Below are positions 13,952 to 26,660 of a DNA stretch of 38,476 nucleotides, one piece after another. This DNA is from Actinomycetota bacterium (GTDB lineage Bacteria > Actinomycetota > Acidimicrobiia > Actinomarinales > Actinomarinaceae): positions 1 through 38,476 of the forward strand of contig JAQCEB010000005.1 in assembly GCA_027729925.1 (NCBI GenBank). The letters are read 5' to 3'. Under the pieces are notes generated by a model that did no database searches, had not been told where the DNA came from, and worked only from the letters and a program-made list of their open reading frames with translations. Position 1 is the first letter of the stretch. Every line of letters starts with the position of its first letter. A program made the translations under genes and the position numbers.

Positions 13952-15000
13952 TTTTTAAGATTCAAAACTTTCTCAATTGATTCTGAAACTCTATCCCAAC
14001 TAAATTCTCTTTTAACGAATTCCTTTGAAGCATTGCCAAATTCTTTTATTTTTTCAGGATTATCGATGAAAAAATTAAGTGCATCAGAGATATCTTTTCT
14101 TGAAGAAACTATAAATCCTGTTTTCCCAGGTATTATAGTTTCGAATGAACCGCCTGATGAACCTACTAAAACAGGAAGGCCATAACTAGCAGCTTCCAAA
14201 TAAACTAATCCTAAACCTTCAAATTCTCTTCCAAAGTATCGTGATTTTGAAGGCATAACAAAAACATCTAGGGATTTATAAAATTCTTCCAAAGAGTCAT
14301 GATTCTTATCTGAATAAAAACTAATTTTTGCTGATGAAAGCTTTGCTAATTTCCTTAAAAAACTTTCTTGTTTTCCAAAACCAAATATCTTTAATTCTAC
14401 TCTCCTGCCTTCATCAACTAAATCTGATACTGAGTCGATAACCCAGTCAATTTTTTTTCTAGGTACAAATCTACTACTCACTCCTACGGTCAACACGTCT
14501 TTTTGTTTGTAATCTTTTTCAAAATCAATTTTGTCTATGCCAGCTTTAACTATTTCAATTTCAGAATCTACAATAGTTCTTAACTTCCTTGCCGTGTAGT
14601 AACTTACAGTAAATATTTTTTCTAAATCATTCAGATTATTTTTTAAAACTCTATTTAAAAATGGAATACTTCTAACAATGTTAAATTCCGCACCGTGAAC
14701 AATCATATATTGTGGTAAATTGTAAATTTTTAATTTCTTAATCATTAAAAACTGTGGATTGCTAGAAGCATGAAGAATAACATTTATATTCTTTGTATTA
14801 ATTATTTTATTTATCTCATTGTATGTTTTTTTATTCGGATAAATAAATCCTTTTGATGATTTTGTTTCAGGATTATTGTCTGCCCATTTTGGAGAATATA
14901 TAATAACTTCACTTTTCATATTTTCTATTAGTGAATTTATATATGTTGATATACCTCCTTTTTTTGGAGTTATATCATTTGTTATAAGTAAAATTCTCAT
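13948..15000 (-). CDS. GT4 glycosyltransferase, PimB'-like
   Basis: Sugar transferase of 350 residues with two Rossmann domains. Seen: glycine-rich N-terminus ITPKKGGISTYIN, the nucleotide-sugar strand GVSSRFVPRKK, the E-x7-E element in FEGLGLVYLEAASYG, and GSSGGSFETIIPGKTGFIV. The segment VFVMPSKSR followed by FEGLGLVYLEA is very close to mycobacterial/corynebacterial PimB' (mannosyltransferase for phosphatidylinositol mannosides), so a role in mannosylated lipid or another glycolipid is plausible, though the acceptor is unproven. I chose the ATG at 15000 with GGAG nine bases before; a TTG two codons upstream is unlikely. It overlaps the end of the phosphatase gene by 26 bases. Confidence 0.85.
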   Translation of the reverse strand: MRILLITNDITPKKGGISTYINSLIENMKSEVIIYSPKWADNNPETKSSKGFIYPNKKTYNEINKIINTKNINVILHASSNPQFLMIKKLKIYNLPQYMIVHGAEFNIVRSIPFLNRVLKNNLNDLEKIFTVSYYTARKLRTIVDSEIEIVKAGIDKIDFEKDYKQKDVLTVGVSSRFVPRKKIDWVIDSVSDLVDEGRRVELKIFGFGKQESFLRKLAKLSSAKISFYSDKNHDSLEEFYKSLDVFVMPSKSRYFGREFEGLGLVYLEAASYGLPVLVGSSGGSFETIIPGKTGFIVSSRKDISDALNFFIDNPEKIKEFGNASKEFVKREFSWDRVSESIEKVLNLKN

Positions 15001-16195
15001 ATCCAATTTCTCCTACATTATAGGACCATAGTTGGTATTGATTATTTTGATTTATCAAAGTTGAGATACCTAAATTATTGGGAATAGTAAATCCAGATGC
15101 TGCTTTATCGTTAGGAAGTTTTAATAGCTTTGTTATACCAGCTTTTATAGTCCCACCATGCGATGAGATAAACACATTTTTATTTTTAAACTGATTAAGT
15201 AATTTTTCAACTCTAACCCCGACTTGATATAAAGATTCTCCATTTTCCCCATATTTTGATTTATGGTTCAAAAAAAGTGCATTAATAAATTCATCTTTAT
15301 TGTTCTCGAGTATTTGTGATGTAGTCATCCCTTCCCAATTACCTAAATCAATCTCGACCAGTGAACTAGATAATTGAAAATTATTTTTTGTTACTAAATT
15401 TAATGTTTGCTGAGTTCTTTTAAGTGGAGATGAGATATATTCATCATAAATTGATATTTTTTTGTTTAATTTATTTGCCTCTCTTATTCCAAAATTATTT
15501 ATTGGATTATCAATTTTACCTTGCCAAATTCCTTTAGTGTTTGAATCAGTTTGTGCATGCCTCATAAACGTTAATTGAGAGTTAAATAAATGAATTGGAA
15601 AATCATACAAATTATCGAGATGGATAGCATCATTAAATTTATTAACTTGCCTAAGACCATCTCTTTCAATAATTGTAGAAATAGAAGTATTTCTAATATT
15701 TCCGACTGGATATGGGAACTCTTTAAAGCCTAAAGTTAAACCAATTGCAGTACCAATAAAAAAACCATGAGTTACAGCTAATGAAATTTCGTTTTCTTTT
15801 GTTTTTGAAAATAAATAATCTAGTTCAAGATGAACTCTTTCTCTAAAATTTTTCATTGATTCTCCATTTGGAAAAACAAATGAATCATCCGCTAAAGAAT
15901 CAAAAATGGACCGATTGTTAGTATAAGTTTCTGAAACTTTCTCGCCCGCAAAATTTCCAACATCAACTTCTCTCAATTGTTTTCTTTTCTCAATGCTGTT
16001 TGAGAATTTATGGGCCGTATCTAAAGCTCTTTTAAGATCTGAACTAAAAACTTTGGAGAAGTTGTTTAGTCTATTAGATGATTGAACTGCTTGTTTTAAA
16101 CCAGTTGAATCTAAAGAAGTTTCACTATGACCTTGCCAAATTTTTTGTAAATTTTCTTTTGTTTGACCATGTCTAATTAAGTGAAGAGTCTTCAC
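14975..16195 (-). CDS. Tandem histidine-phosphatase (phosphoglycerate mutase-like) protein
   Basis: 406 residues made of two complete histidine-phosphatase domains joined head to tail. Domain 1: LIRHGQT (H9), SSDLKRA (R56), VTHGFF (H143). Domain 2: FMRHAQT (H213), SSPLKRT (R260), SSHGGT (H346). Both keep the phosphorylated His, the pocket Arg and the second His, and both share an IWQG motif after the first His, pointing to internal duplication. Substrates may be sugar phosphates, phosphoglycerate, alpha-ribazole phosphate or glycosyl phosphates; the sequence does not decide. It begins with GTG, six bases after hppA, and overlaps the PimB'-like gene, so a link to glycolipid or sugar-phosphate metabolism is possible. 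Confidence 0.88.
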   Translation of the reverse strand: MKTLHLIRHGQTKENLQKIWQGHSETSLDSTGLKQAVQSSNRLNNFSKVFSSDLKRALDTAHKFSNSIEKRKQLREVDVGNFAGEKVSETYTNNRSIFDSLADDSFVFPNGESMKNFRERVHLELDYLFSKTKENEISLAVTHGFFIGTAIGLTLGFKEFPYPVGNIRNTSISTIIERDGLRQVNKFNDAIHLDNLYDFPIHLFNSQLTFMRHAQTDSNTKGIWQGKIDNPINNFGIREANKLNKKISIYDEYISSPLKRTQQTLNLVTKNNFQLSSSLVEIDLGNWEGMTTSQILENNKDEFINALFLNHKSKYGENGESLYQVGVRVEKLLNQFKNKNVFISSHGGTIKAGITKLLKLPNDKAASGFTIPNNLGISTLINQNNQYQLWSYNVGEIGYENFTYNK

Positions 16196-22313: not shown

Positions 22314-22901
22314 ATGAAAAAAATCAATACTTTTAAATCAACAATGCTTCCTCTAGCCATGTCAAATGTTGATACAGATCAAATTATGCCAAAACAATTT
22401 TTAAAAAGAGTTGAAAGGACTGGATATGGTGAATTTTTATTTTTTGACTGGAAAAAAGATCCTTCATTTGTATTAAACAATGAAAAATATCGAGATGCAA
22501 AAGTTTTGATAGCAGGAGATAATTTTGGGACAGGATCTTCAAGAGAACATGCACCATGGGGTTTACAAGATTGGGGTTTCGATGCAATTATATCAACAAA
22601 ATTTGCAGACATATTTAGGTTAAATTCTATAAATATAGGTTTAATCCCTATTGAAACTACAAAGCAAAATGTTGATTATTTGTTTGAACAAATCGAAGAA
22701 GATCCTAAATGTAATATTGAAATTTCAGTAGAAAACAAATCTGTTAGGTGCAAAAATTTAGAGTTTAATTTTCAATTAGATGAATTTTCACAAAACAGAA
22801 TTTTGAATGGTTTAGACAAGATTGATTTCAGCCTCAAATATTCAGAAGAGATCCAGAAATTTTTTAACAATCGTAAGCCTTGGAAGCCTAAATTAACTTA
22901 G
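22314..22901 (+). CDS. leuD: 3-isopropylmalate dehydratase, small subunit
   Basis: The swivelling domain of isopropylmalate isomerase, 195 residues, normal for the family. Seen: NVDTDQIMPKQFLK, then GDNFGTGSSREHAPWGL with the substrate-binding serine and arginine, and the conserved ADIFRLNSINIGLIPI. The ATG follows the leuC stop directly (TAA then ATG), so the two subunits are coupled in equal amounts. The last 14 bases overlap the 3' end of the convergent ald gene, leaving no room for a terminator. Confidence 0.98.
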   Translation: MKKINTFKSTMLPLAMSNVDTDQIMPKQFLKRVERTGYGEFLFFDWKKDPSFVLNNEKYRDAKVLIAGDNFGTGSSREHAPWGLQDWGFDAIISTKFADIFRLNSINIGLIPIETTKQNVDYLFEQIEEDPKCNIEISVENKSVRCKNLEFNFQLDEFSQNRILNGLDKIDFSLKYSEEIQKFFNNRKPWKPKLT

Positions 22902-23991
22902 ATAAAGTAAGACTTAAACTTTCAGCAACTTCCTCAGAAAGTAATAATCCATTGTAAAGTTGTAGTGAACTATTTAAATTTGGATTATTTCTATACTTCT
23001 CAAACCAATCTTCTTCAAGCAAATGCCCCACATAATTCTGTAATGAATTAGAAAGTTCAATTGAAGATGTTTTAGGAACAGCTCCAGGGAGATTGGCAAT
23101 AGCTGATAATATAATTCCATTTCTATTTTCATATGGTTCAGAATGTGAGTTTGAAGCAACACCTTCGACACAGCCTCCTTGGTCAATTGCAACATCAATA
23201 ACAACTGACCCTTTTTGCATATGAGAAAGATCTTCATTTGTTATAACAACTGGAGGTCTTTTACCTGGAACTAATACGGCACCGATTAATAAATCTGCAT
23301 CTCTTATTGCTTTAGTGGCTTCTTGGGTATTACTCAGGTAAGTATTTATTTTATCACCATAGGTTTTTTTAAGACTTTCTAAAGTTTCACCCTTAATATC
23401 AATAGCATTTACTTTTGCTCCAATTTGTATTGATTTTTTAATTGAACTTTGACCTACTATTCCACAACCTACTACAGTCACAGTTCCATTTTGTTTACTA
23501 CTTATCGAAGATAGAAGTAATCCTTTACCCCCAGAATTAAATTCTAAAAATTGCATACCTTTTTGAACTGCAAGATTTCCTGCAATTTTAGACATTGGAA
23601 TTAATAATGGATATTCATCTTCCTCTTTAATCATCTCAGTGGCAATACCAGTTACTTTCAGCTCTAAAAGTTTTTTAGTTAGCATTAGATTTGAAGCTAA
23701 ATGTAAATAGCCAAATAAAACATGATCGGATTTAATTCTGTTGAACTCCTCTTCTTGAGGTTCTTTAACTTTACAAATTATCTCAGAAATTTCGTATAAC
23801 TCATCTGCTGTATTTACGATTTTTGCTCCCGCTTTTACATATTCTTCATCAGTAAATCCTGAACTAAGACCCGCATTAGATTCTACGAAAATATCGGCTT
23901 GACCAGTAAATTGTGTTATATGTTCGGGTATTAAGCTAACCCTTCCTTCGTCTTTTTTAACTTCTTTAGGAATGCCTAGTTTTTTAATCAT
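22888..23991 (-). CDS. ald: Alanine dehydrogenase (NAD+)
   Basis: Interconverts L-alanine with pyruvate and ammonia. It has 367 residues, the usual 360-375. Seen: LGIPKEVKKDEGRVSLIPEH, the substrate region ICKVKEPQ and VLFGYLHLAS (conserved lysine and histidine), the Rossmann loop VVGCGIVGQSS, and VIDVAIDQGGCVEG. It is not a nicotinamide nucleotide transhydrogenase, because the second domain and membrane part are absent. Its ATG lies inside the end of the IDO gene (8-base overlap, ATGATTAA), so the two are translationally coupled. A link through tryptophan breakdown, in which kynureninase releases alanine, is inference. Confidence 0.97.
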   Translation of the reverse strand: MIKKLGIPKEVKKDEGRVSLIPEHITQFTGQADIFVESNAGLSSGFTDEEYVKAGAKIVNTADELYEISEIICKVKEPQEEEFNRIKSDHVLFGYLHLASNLMLTKKLLELKVTGIATEMIKEEDEYPLLIPMSKIAGNLAVQKGMQFLEFNSGGKGLLLSSISSKQNGTVTVVGCGIVGQSSIKKSIQIGAKVNAIDIKGETLESLKKTYGDKINTYLSNTQEATKAIRDADLLIGAVLVPGKRPPVVITNEDLSHMQKGSVVIDVAIDQGGCVEGVASNSHSEPYENRNGIILSAIANLPGAVPKTSSIELSNSLQNYVGHLLEEDWFEKYRNNPNLNSSLQLYNGLLLSEEVAESLSLTLSKLI

Positions 23992-25105
23992 TACTTGGAA
24001 CAGTTTCTTGTAAATGCTTATCTAAGTATTTCATAAATGGTGTTCCGCCGGTACCTACAATATTTGAATTAGAGTTGTTTGTTAAAGATTGTTCAAATAT
24101 ATAAACTCTTGCATACTCAAGATGCTTGTTACGAAAGATATGTACTTGTTCAATTATTGAATTCAATATTTCAACATGAGAGTGGTCCAAATTTTTTACA
24201 ATTTCTTTCCTATTATTCATAGACCACTGATCTAATTCATTCAATAAGACTCTGTGCTCTTTTGGCATGTAGGTTCTCATTTCATCTAGATACTCTCTCA
24301 GTGGGTCGTTAGAGTGTGTTACCCCTAACAACGCATCTAGCATTGGCACAATAGAACTTTGTGCTCCTGTTTCACCTCTAAATGAAACAGGTTTGTTTCC
24401 GTACTCTTCAACTCCTTCATAAATTACTCCATTAGGAGTAGCTGGATTATTTTTCCAACCGAAAATATAAGGTCGAACTCTGTTGTAGTAGATGAAAGGA
24501 TCGCATTTTTCAGGCATTCTATTCATAATTTCATTTATTTTTTTTATACTATTTAAAGCAATTTGTAATTTTTCAATTTCAAATGAACCGTTAAAAAAAT
24601 AATCCTTCAAACTTCCTAGAATATGCTTTGCTTCATGTTCTATCGCTACATGAATCATGATGAACCAATCTTCGTCAACACCTCCTAAAAAATTTTGCAA
24701 AATTTCAATATTTTCAAGTTCAAAAGGTTTTTCTTTATTTAACAATCGCCAATTATTCAATGCATATGAAGCATATGAGAGGATTGGAGGCCTATCAAGT
24801 TGTTGAGCTATTTTATGCCAAGTTAACGCTATTTGTTCTGGAATAATATTTTCTTCATTTTTCTTACCCCACATATAAGCGTGGCCAATATAAGAATAAA
24901 GAAGCATAGCCCTTTCAAGTTGGCTAGAGTTTAAATTTGATATATCTTTATGAATTTCAAGTTTTAAAACACTTTCTTCTATCTGCTCATTGCCAAGTAC
25001 CTTAGGTAATTGATTAGCCAAATTTTCAACGTCTTCAAAGCCTTCAGGAAGATTTTCTGAAATTTCTTTTGGTATAAATCCCATATCTAAAATTTCTAGG
25101 TTCAT
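23984..25105 (-). CDS. Indoleamine 2,3-dioxygenase family heme protein
   Basis: The family opens the indole ring of tryptophan to N-formylkynurenine using heme and O2. It has 373 residues, like animal and fungal IDO (about 400) and unlike bacterial tetrameric TDO (about 280). Seen: RPPILSYASYALNNW (105-119), DEDWFIMIHVAIEHEA, RPYIFGWKN, VIYEGV, RGETGAQSSIVPMLDALLG (243-261; animal IDO has SAGQSS here), YLDEMRTYMPKEHR, the proximal heme histidine H328 in FRNKHLEYARVYI, and the C-terminal GTGGTPFMKYL. A GGAG site stands before the ATG. It overlaps ald by 8 bases. Substrate could differ from tryptophan, since bacterial homologues such as PrnB do other chemistry. Family certain; reaction inferred. 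Confidence 0.93.
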   Translation of the reverse strand: MNLEILDMGFIPKEISENLPEGFEDVENLANQLPKVLGNEQIEESVLKLEIHKDISNLNSSQLERAMLLYSYIGHAYMWGKKNEENIIPEQIALTWHKIAQQLDRPPILSYASYALNNWRLLNKEKPFELENIEILQNFLGGVDEDWFIMIHVAIEHEAKHILGSLKDYFFNGSFEIEKLQIALNSIKKINEIMNRMPEKCDPFIYYNRVRPYIFGWKNNPATPNGVIYEGVEEYGNKPVSFRGETGAQSSIVPMLDALLGVTHSNDPLREYLDEMRTYMPKEHRVLLNELDQWSMNNRKEIVKNLDHSHVEILNSIIEQVHIFRNKHLEYARVYIFEQSLTNNSNSNIVGTGGTPFMKYLDKHLQETVPSND

Positions 25106-25114
25106 TTCATCTCC

Positions 25115-25153
25115 AGTTTACAAAATTTTTACTATCAGATTCAATGGTAAACT
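25115..25153. promoter_or_regulatory. Inverted repeat / facing -10 boxes between IDO and photolyase genes
   Basis: In the 61-base divergent gap, AGTTTAC (25115-25121) and GTAAACT (25147-25153) are perfect 7-base inverted arms, 32 bases centre to centre (about three helical turns). Each arm also provides TAAACT as a -10 box pointing at the nearer gene; for IDO a TTGAAT -35 box (minus strand, 25144-25139) lies 18 bases upstream. Starts would fall at or within a few bases of both ATGs. Either facing leaderless promoters or an operator; not decidable by eye. Confidence 0.35.
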
Positions 25154-25166
25154 ATCTTTAAATAAG

Positions 25167-26660
25167 ATGGGAAAAAAATTTTTTTTAATATTAGGTAATC
25201 AATTATTTAATCCTTCAATCCTAAAAAAACTAAATTGTGATGAGGTATTTATGGCTGAAGATGAAGGTTTGTGTACTTATGTAAAACATCATAAATTAAA
25301 ATTATTGTTTTTTCTTACTGCAATGAGGGATTATAAAAACGAACTTGAAAATAATAATATTAAAGTTAACTACTTCAAGTTAGATGAAAGATCAGATTTT
25401 AAAAATTATGTTGATTTTTTTGTAAGTTATCTGAATAAAAGAAAAATTGATAAAATTCATATGTTTCATATTGAGGATAAATTTCTTGAAATTGAAATAA
25501 TAAATAAACTTCAAAAAAATAATATTTCTTTTCAAATTGAAAAAAACCCTAATTTTATATTTACCCCTGAGGAGTTCAACAGCTTTACTAAATCTACAAA
25601 AGTTTATCGTATGGTTTCTTTTTACAAACAATCAAGAACAAAATTAAATATACTTTTAGACGAAAATATGAATCCACTTGGTGGGAAATGGTCGTTTGAT
25701 GAAGAAAACAGAAAAAAAATTCCAAAAAATAAATTACTTCCCACAGAAATACAACATAAACCTAGTGTAAATTTGAAAGAAGTTAAAAACTTAATTTCAA
25801 AAAGGTTTAGTAAACATCCTGGAGAATTAGAAAATGTTTGGTTTCCTACAACTAGAAAACAATCCGAGCAACATTTAGATTTCTTTCTAGAAAAAAAATA
25901 TTTGCACTTCGGAGACTATGAAGATGCCGTAGTAGAAAATACAAATTTTTTATTTCATAGTTCAATAAGTCCAATGTTAAATGTAGGGCTTTTAGACCCA
26001 AATAAAGTGGTGAAAAAAGCCTTACGGTTTGGTAAAGAAAATAATATTCCTATCAATTCTATTGAAGGTTTTATAAGACAAATTATTGGTTGGCGAGAAT
26101 TTGTTAGAGGAATTTATCAAGCAAAAGGAGAACTCCAATATAATTCAAATTTTTGGAATCATAACAATAAACTAAGTGAATCTTGGTATAAAGGAACTAC
26201 TGGATTAGAACCTCTTGACGACATAATAAAATCTGTTAACAAAGATGGTTATACACACCATATCCCTCGGTTGATGATTTTAAGTAATATTATGAATCTT
26301 TCGAGAATTCACCCAAAAGAAATCTATAAATGGTTTATGGAGATGTTTATTGATTCATCTGATTGGGTTATGGTACCCAATGTTTTTGGAATGGCAACAT
26401 ATTCGGACGGTGGTTTAATGTCAACAAAACCCTACACATGTGGTTCAAACTATATCTTAAAAATGAGTAATTATTCGAGAGGTGATTGGTGTGATGTTGT
26501 TGATGGTCTTTATTGGAAATTTACTGAAGACAATTTAGAATTTTATAAATCTAATCCACGACTTTCTGTATTGTCTAAAAATTTAGAAAGGATGAATCCC
26601 GAGAGAAAAAAAGATATCTTTCAAAAAGCTGAAAATTTTATTTCAAATAATACTAAATAG
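25167..26660 (+). CDS. Photolyase/cryptochrome of the PhrB (FeS-BCP) relatives, lacking most Fe-S cysteines
   Basis: FAD blue-light protein for DNA photorepair, 497 residues. Seen: N-terminal KKFFLILGNQLFNPS (the LGDQL motif of this subfamily), the FAD/DNA region IRQIIGWREFVRGIY, GYTHHIPRLMILSNI, DSSDWVMVPNVFGMATYSD and GGLMSTKPYTCGSNYI. PhrB holds a 4Fe-4S cluster with four cysteines. Here the region between SNYILKMSNY and GLYWKF is shortened and keeps only C442 (in RGDWCDVV); the others are replaced or deleted, and C425 is at another place. So a cluster is unlikely. It may repair (6-4) lesions, as PhrB does, or be a photoreceptor. Its end overlaps the convergent phosphodiesterase by 8 bases. 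Confidence 0.9.
   Translation: MGKKFFLILGNQLFNPSILKKLNCDEVFMAEDEGLCTYVKHHKLKLLFFLTAMRDYKNELENNNIKVNYFKLDERSDFKNYVDFFVSYLNKRKIDKIHMFHIEDKFLEIEIINKLQKNNISFQIEKNPNFIFTPEEFNSFTKSTKVYRMVSFYKQSRTKLNILLDENMNPLGGKWSFDEENRKKIPKNKLLPTEIQHKPSVNLKEVKNLISKRFSKHPGELENVWFPTTRKQSEQHLDFFLEKKYLHFGDYEDAVVENTNFLFHSSISPMLNVGLLDPNKVVKKALRFGKENNIPINSIEGFIRQIIGWREFVRGIYQAKGELQYNSNFWNHNNKLSESWYKGTTGLEPLDDIIKSVNKDGYTHHIPRLMILSNIMNLSRIHPKEIYKWFMEMFIDSSDWVMVPNVFGMATYSDGGLMSTKPYTCGSNYILKMSNYSRGDWCDVVDGLYWKFTEDNLEFYKSNPRLSVLSKNLERMNPERKKDIFQKAENFISNNTK

Follow-up and report, generated by a model that had tools for sequence, protein, structure and literature searches.

Background

Indoleamine 2,3-dioxygenase (IDO) has been studied almost wholly as a human immune enzyme. 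Bacterial IDO is already known and has been reviewed (PMC4191572, which cites Yuasa 2011). In tryptophan 2,3-dioxygenase (TDO), the residues His76, Arg144, and Thr342 of the human enzyme contact L-tryptophan at its indole N1, its carboxylate, and its amine, respectively, and their counterparts in human IDO1 are Ser167, Arg231, and Thr379 (PMC5758539). Here we describe an IDO gene followed by an alanine dehydrogenase gene (ald) in a stretch of 38,476 nucleotides (nt), hereafter the window, from contig JAQCEB010000005.1 of assembly GCA_027729925.1. The host is Candidatus Actinomarina, and its nearest named relatives are Candidatus Actinomarina genomes; the assembly comprises 54 contigs and 915 kb, with a completeness of 87.8%. 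We suggest, with a probability of about 0.6, that this IDO is a laterally spread dioxygenase of L-tryptophan, or of a close indole amino acid, that works without a kynurenine pathway and is encoded on the same mRNA as ald but belongs to a separate pathway. The features of the two-gene unit are as follows.

23984–25105, minus strand: IDO-family heme dioxygenase (predicted), 373 amino acids; PF01231, PDB matches, residue mapping, and model
22888–23991, minus strand: alanine dehydrogenase (Ald), second gene of the unit, 367 amino acids; PF05222 and PF01262
23984–23991, minus strand: stop/start overlap of IDO and ald, ATGATTAA, 8 nt

An IDO with a TDO-like pocket

The IDO open reading frame matches the Pfam family PF01231 with an E-value of 2.3e-78 (264.3 bits, cut-off 26) over profile positions 10–409 of 412, and among solved structures it is closest to human IDO1 and IDO2 (about 29% identity). 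The AlphaFold model (pLDDT 86.7, pTM 0.87) is matched by Foldseek to IDO1/IDO2 with a TM score of about 0.87. The identities of both gene products proposed by the first-pass annotation of this DNA, made from the sequence alone, are thus borne out by Pfam, PDB relatives, and the model, and the IDO signature that it cited (GAQSS, H328, and GTGGT) is present as TGAQSS at 246–251, His328, and GTGGT at 351–355.

The mapped pocket consists of Y111, Y114, F148, H152, Y206, R211, 245-ETGA-248, and 351-GTGG-354, with His328 as the proximal residue. H328, R211, and G351–G354 align with the proximal heme histidine, Arg231, and the GTGG loop of human IDO1, and the equivalents of the TDO triad are His152, Arg211, and Thr352. 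Judged by this alignment, the protein carries a complete TDO triad in an IDO fold. We take Tyr126 and Tyr129 (human IDO1 numbering) to match Tyr42 and Tyr45 of human TDO, and Tyr226 to match Tyr113 of Xanthomonas TDO. In Pfam the protein matches IDO alone and not the TDO family (PF03301), and no TDO gene was found in the source genome.

The product is thus predicted to be a heme-dependent 2,3-dioxygenase of the IDO fold that would cleave the indole ring in L-tryptophan or one of its close analogues. In its TDO-like distal pocket, the histidine at position 167 would hold the indole N-H, the arginine the carboxylate, and the threonine of the GTGG loop the amine. The gene is under purifying selection where it is present: omega is 0.03–0.14 in 11 of 13 close pairs. 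The other two, L055/L056 and L057/L058, reach 0.37–0.43, a range based on very few changes; they are the closest relatives of the genomes that have lost IDO.

A bacterial IDO clade

In a tree of 61 rows, including human IDO1 and the IDOs of two other actinobacteria (L031 and L032), the Actinomarina proteins are sister to those of SAR86 (support 99/98) and lie inside a larger bacterial clade spanning Nitrospirota, Bacteroidota, Armatimonadota (Fimbriimonadales), Myxococcota, Chlamydiota, Cyanobacteriota, and others (42–52% identity). A long, fully supported branch separates this clade from human IDO1, L031, and L032. Its pocket, in human numbering, is Tyr126, Phe163, His167, Glu171, Tyr226, Arg231, Glu-Thr-Gly-Ala at 262–265, His346, and GTGG. 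Among the listed rows (58 clade members of many phyla) H167, E171, Y226, R231, ETGA, H346, and GTGG are invariant, and residue 129 is tyrosine in all but L097. IDO had initially been regarded as mainly animal and fungal and scarce in bacteria; judging from these sequences and the published review (PMC4191572), its bacterial distribution is patchy but widespread.

The genomic context was compared in 47 loci from other bacteria that have the same IDO type. When their neighbours were clustered, none was shared across phyla, and the only recurrent ones are lineage-specific, that is, a lipoamide acyltransferase in Bacteroidia, and pyridoxal-phosphate enzymes and MeaB in Myxococcota. Such an orphan gene could encode a heme redox protein for handling or sensing of superoxide or oxygen rather than a metabolic dioxygenase, as in the IDO-derived myoglobins of molluscs; oxygen carriers of the IDO fold are known, for instance abalone myoglobin (PMC4191572). 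However, the substrate-binding residues, needless for an oxygen carrier, are kept in every clade member, and we consider this explanation improbable.

Clade IDOs were observed in many Nitrospira (L103, L105, L092, L099–L101, L107, and L112–L114), among them N. moscoviensis, whose genome is complete. A phage-borne gene was considered and rejected: a search of 50,697 phage records gave no match to IDO. Five matches were found in IMG/VR. One of them (L161) is a contig filed as viral that carries the Actinomarina photolyase-IDO pair and is probably a chromosomal Actinomarina fragment. In L160, and similarly in L159, a clade IDO is flanked by a saccharopine-dehydrogenase C-domain gene on one side and a family-B DNA polymerase on the other, and in L162 it is located on a 511-kb contig near a thiamine-pyrophosphate enzyme; these three IMG/VR contigs may be of viral or archaeal origin.

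In two further actinobacteria (L033 and L034, genomes G190 and G212), an N-terminal IDO-like half (profile positions 8–212) was found in very long open reading frames whose C-terminal part resembles a ferredoxin reductase (IAGGTGISPFLGM in L033) and which adjoin CBS-domain-like genes. These may be self-sufficient IDO-reductase fusions.

Missing kynurenine pathway

The first-pass annotation had proposed that IDO, formamidase, and kynureninase convert tryptophan to alanine, which Ald deaminates to yield nitrogen and pyruvate. Operons of this kind exist: in the actinobacterium L031, with a genome of 9.2 Mb, IDO is directly upstream of genes for an alpha/beta hydrolase and kynureninase. The IDO of L031, however, sits in the other, canonical branch, and the pathway genes are missing from Actinomarina. 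In profile searches of genomes, on which all gene absences reported here are based, kynureninase had no match in the source genome even at E <= 10 and was found in 0 of 20 genomes of the genus. This search is sensitive, since both the controls and several further genomes of the class gave strong matches. The KynB-type formamidase (PF04199) is likewise absent from the source genome and from all 23 genus genomes searched. The hydrolase of the L031 operon, used as a query, had no match in the source genome and weak matches (E >= 1e-8) in six other genomes of the genus. The check for kynB and kynU recommended by the first-pass annotation, which had treated their absence as decisive against its proposal, therefore found neither.

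Without formamidase and kynureninase, the tryptophan-to-alanine pathway almost certainly does not operate in Actinomarina. The 8-nt overlap of IDO and ald in every testable locus of the genus speaks for such a pathway, but the gene content, together with the retention of ald in four genomes without IDO (see below), led us to reject it as very improbable. We also rejected, as having next to no probability, a role in the first step of nicotinamide adenine dinucleotide synthesis from tryptophan: both kynureninase and 3-hydroxyanthranilate dioxygenase (0 of 15 genus genomes) are absent from the genomes searched.

Of the 47 genomes outside the genus with a clade IDO, 11 gave a kynureninase score above the cut-off. 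A single Bacteroidia group accounts for most of these 11, and no Nitrospira or Myxococcota genome is among them; the Nitrospira genomes bearing IDO belong to nitrite-oxidising autotrophs. Tryptophan synthase alpha (TrpA) was found in 0 of 23 Actinomarina genomes, in agreement with the published tryptophan auxotrophy of all Actinomarinales (PMC7771536).

This auxotrophy, the general absence of kynureninase from the hosts, including Nitrospira, and the clade-wide pocket substitutions could point to another substrate, such as a D-amino acid, a hydroxy- or methoxy-indole, or indole-3-lactate, with selectivity reshaped by Glu262, Tyr226, and His167. In support of this possibility, ancestral IDOs have been suggested to be broad indole oxidisers (PMC4191572). 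On the other hand, R231 and T379, which hold the carboxylate and the amine, are invariant, and the histidine at 167 mimics the contact that TDO makes with the indole N-H (PMC5758539). On balance, a different substrate seems rather unlikely. The first-pass annotation had offered action on another indole or on oxygen radicals as its own alternative, which keeps some probability.

Coupling to ald and repeated loss of IDO

The IDO survey covered 35 Actinomarina genomes and 24 other genomes of the same class. IDO was found in 30 of the former and none of the latter, and ald in 34 of the 35. Since no other searched genome of the class has IDO, its entry into the ancestor of the genus was likely lateral. 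In all 30 loci ald adjoins IDO, and the adjacency was recorded in 33 named loci of the genus; beyond it, ald was found within the fetched flank in none of the 47 loci. The adjacency that the first-pass annotation asked to be surveyed is therefore conserved, but within Actinomarina only. The overlap of eight bases that it reported was confirmed: in each of the 32 Actinomarina loci with both genes complete it measures exactly 8 nt, and thus is not a chance occurrence. Potentially, it may couple translation of the two genes.

The second gene encodes a protein with both AlaDh_PNT domains (N and C, Pfam), whose nearest PDB chains are alanine dehydrogenases (8hye, 2vhw, and 1pjb), with which it aligns at the Arg, Lys, His, and Asp of the described active-site motifs. 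It scores 354.7 bits in the equivalog test TIGR00518, under the cut-off of 391.85, so "divergent alanine dehydrogenase" is a fair name.

The remaining features of the locus are as follows.

22314–22901, plus strand: LeuD, convergent neighbour marking the conserved locus; Pfam Aconitase_C and synteny in genus loci
25106–25166: divergent intergenic region of 61 bp separating IDO (minus strand) from the photolyase-related gene (plus strand)
25167–26660, plus strand: photolyase-related protein (DPRP and FAD_binding_7); Pfam

Four genomes (G006, G011, G017, and G028; loci L147–L150) lack IDO and have the neighbourhood leuC-leuD-ald-photolyase whole. A tree of locus proteins puts them at two separate positions, and at each the neighbouring genomes carry IDO and have flanks that are nearly identical to theirs. 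In L147 and L150, two copies of TCGAATGA have been joined by the deletion, leaving a 22-codon in-frame IDO stub whose end still overlaps ald by the same 8 nt. L148 and L149 have another junction and a frameshifted stub, with ald intact. IDO was thus lost at least twice, recently, in two independent deletions with ald retained, and is an accessory gene in Actinomarina. The IDO start codon is TTG in the subclade of the deletion genomes.

A recent insertion of IDO before ald was also considered and is ruled out by the nesting of the IDO-less genomes in IDO-bearing groups and by the deletion junctions with leftover IDO codons.

In the deletion strains the former IDO leader is directly 5' of ald. 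Its new position and the retention of ald support a shared transcript, and we infer that the two genes are co-transcribed; IDO would be the first and ald the second gene of the unit, with expression of ald probably dependent on the IDO leader and the overlap. At the same time, retention of ald after the loss of IDO argues against a shared obligatory pathway. Of the joint role suggested earlier for the two genes, the tight coupling stands, and the four deleted genomes speak against an obligatory common pathway.

A GGAG ribosome-binding site occurs directly 5' of the IDO ATG in the intergenic region, which probably holds the IDO-ald promoter unless this lies inside the neighbouring gene. A scan for promoters and terminators gave no excess over shuffles and is uninformative in such AT-rich DNA.

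Possible function of IDO in Actinomarina

The catalytic activity, substrate, and product fate of the window IDO are those that we infer from its relatives and context. Most likely, imported tryptophan or a related indole would be oxidised in one step to N-formylkynurenine, which would then be exported or deformylated non-specifically, so that the product is left as N-formylkynurenine or kynurenine. Candidate benefits are the control of excess imported tryptophan, the disposal of redox equivalents and oxygen or of reactive oxygen, an excreted signal, or a product absorbing light or ultraviolet. For the latter, the photolyase-related neighbour is tempting; however, it is missing beside IDO in four genomes (L016, L028, L029, and L030), where a GDPD gene adjoins IDO instead, and thus is no stable partner. 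By tentative extension, the whole clade with the TDO-type site might act outside the kynurenine pathway, with N-formylkynurenine or its analogue as the end product.

Several points weigh against a tryptophan dioxygenase without a kynurenine pathway. Genome completeness in the genus is 51–94%, which limits gene-absence calls, although gaps alone are a very unlikely cause, because the joint absence spans 15–23 genomes. There is also a small chance that the genus has an unrecognised kynureninase-like or formamidase-like enzyme. Histidine at position 167 destabilises the ferrous-oxy complex of human IDO1 (PMC5758539), and therefore His167 alone is no guarantee of activity. The glutamate at 262 is unusual and has no counterpart in IDO1. 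Finally, destruction of tryptophan by a tryptophan auxotroph is physiologically odd and leaves room for another substrate.

This last point is the main puzzle: auxotrophs with genomes of about 1 Mb keep a gene predicted to destroy tryptophan. The near-identical genomes with and without IDO make it testable from field data. If our reading is correct, surface-ocean Actinomarina would oxidise and release dissolved tryptophan rather than use it, and the IDO-deletion strains are natural controls. More generally, a large TDO-pocket branch that is mostly without kynureninase would mean that the job of IDO need not be the kynurenine pathway.

Elsewhere in the window, a single open reading frame at 14975–16195 has two halves that both match histidine-phosphatase families (one RNase H/acid-phosphatase-like, the other similar to the alpha-ribazole phosphatase CobC), and is possibly a tandem phosphatase fusion.

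Relation to described enzymes

Compared with human IDO1 and IDO2, the window IDO shows full-length homology and the same fold (TM 0.87), and retains the proximal His, Arg231, Thr379, the GTGG loop, Phe163, and Glu171. It differs by the replacement of Ser167 by His, Cys129 by Tyr, Phe226 by Tyr, and Gly262-Ser263-Ala264-Gly265 by Glu-Thr-Gly-Ala. With TDO (PF03301) it shares, by alignment, the His/Arg/Thr pocket triad, a feature of how that enzyme works, whereas by sequence and fold it is an IDO. The canonical actinobacterial IDOs L031 and L032 are from the same Pfam family and phylum, but are only 28–29% identical to it, have Thr at 167 and a GSAA or GSAG loop, and are placed with human IDO1 in the tree. 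The IDOs of Nitrospira, Bacteroidia, Fimbriimonadales, Myxococcota, and SAR86 are the most similar (42–52% identity, with the same pocket signature); outside Actinomarina, however, ald never adjoins them in the fetched loci, and their neighbours vary by lineage. The window Ald, in turn, resembles the alanine dehydrogenases 8hye, 2vhw, and 1pjb in both domains and in the active-site motif residues, but falls outside the equivalog TIGR00518. What appears to be new is the combination of a clade that spans phyla, has a TDO-like pocket, and mostly occurs apart from kynureninase with a fixed position before ald in a marine genus auxotrophic for tryptophan and two clean natural deletions. The clade would also be a natural system in which to test the disputed role of the Ser167/His76 position.
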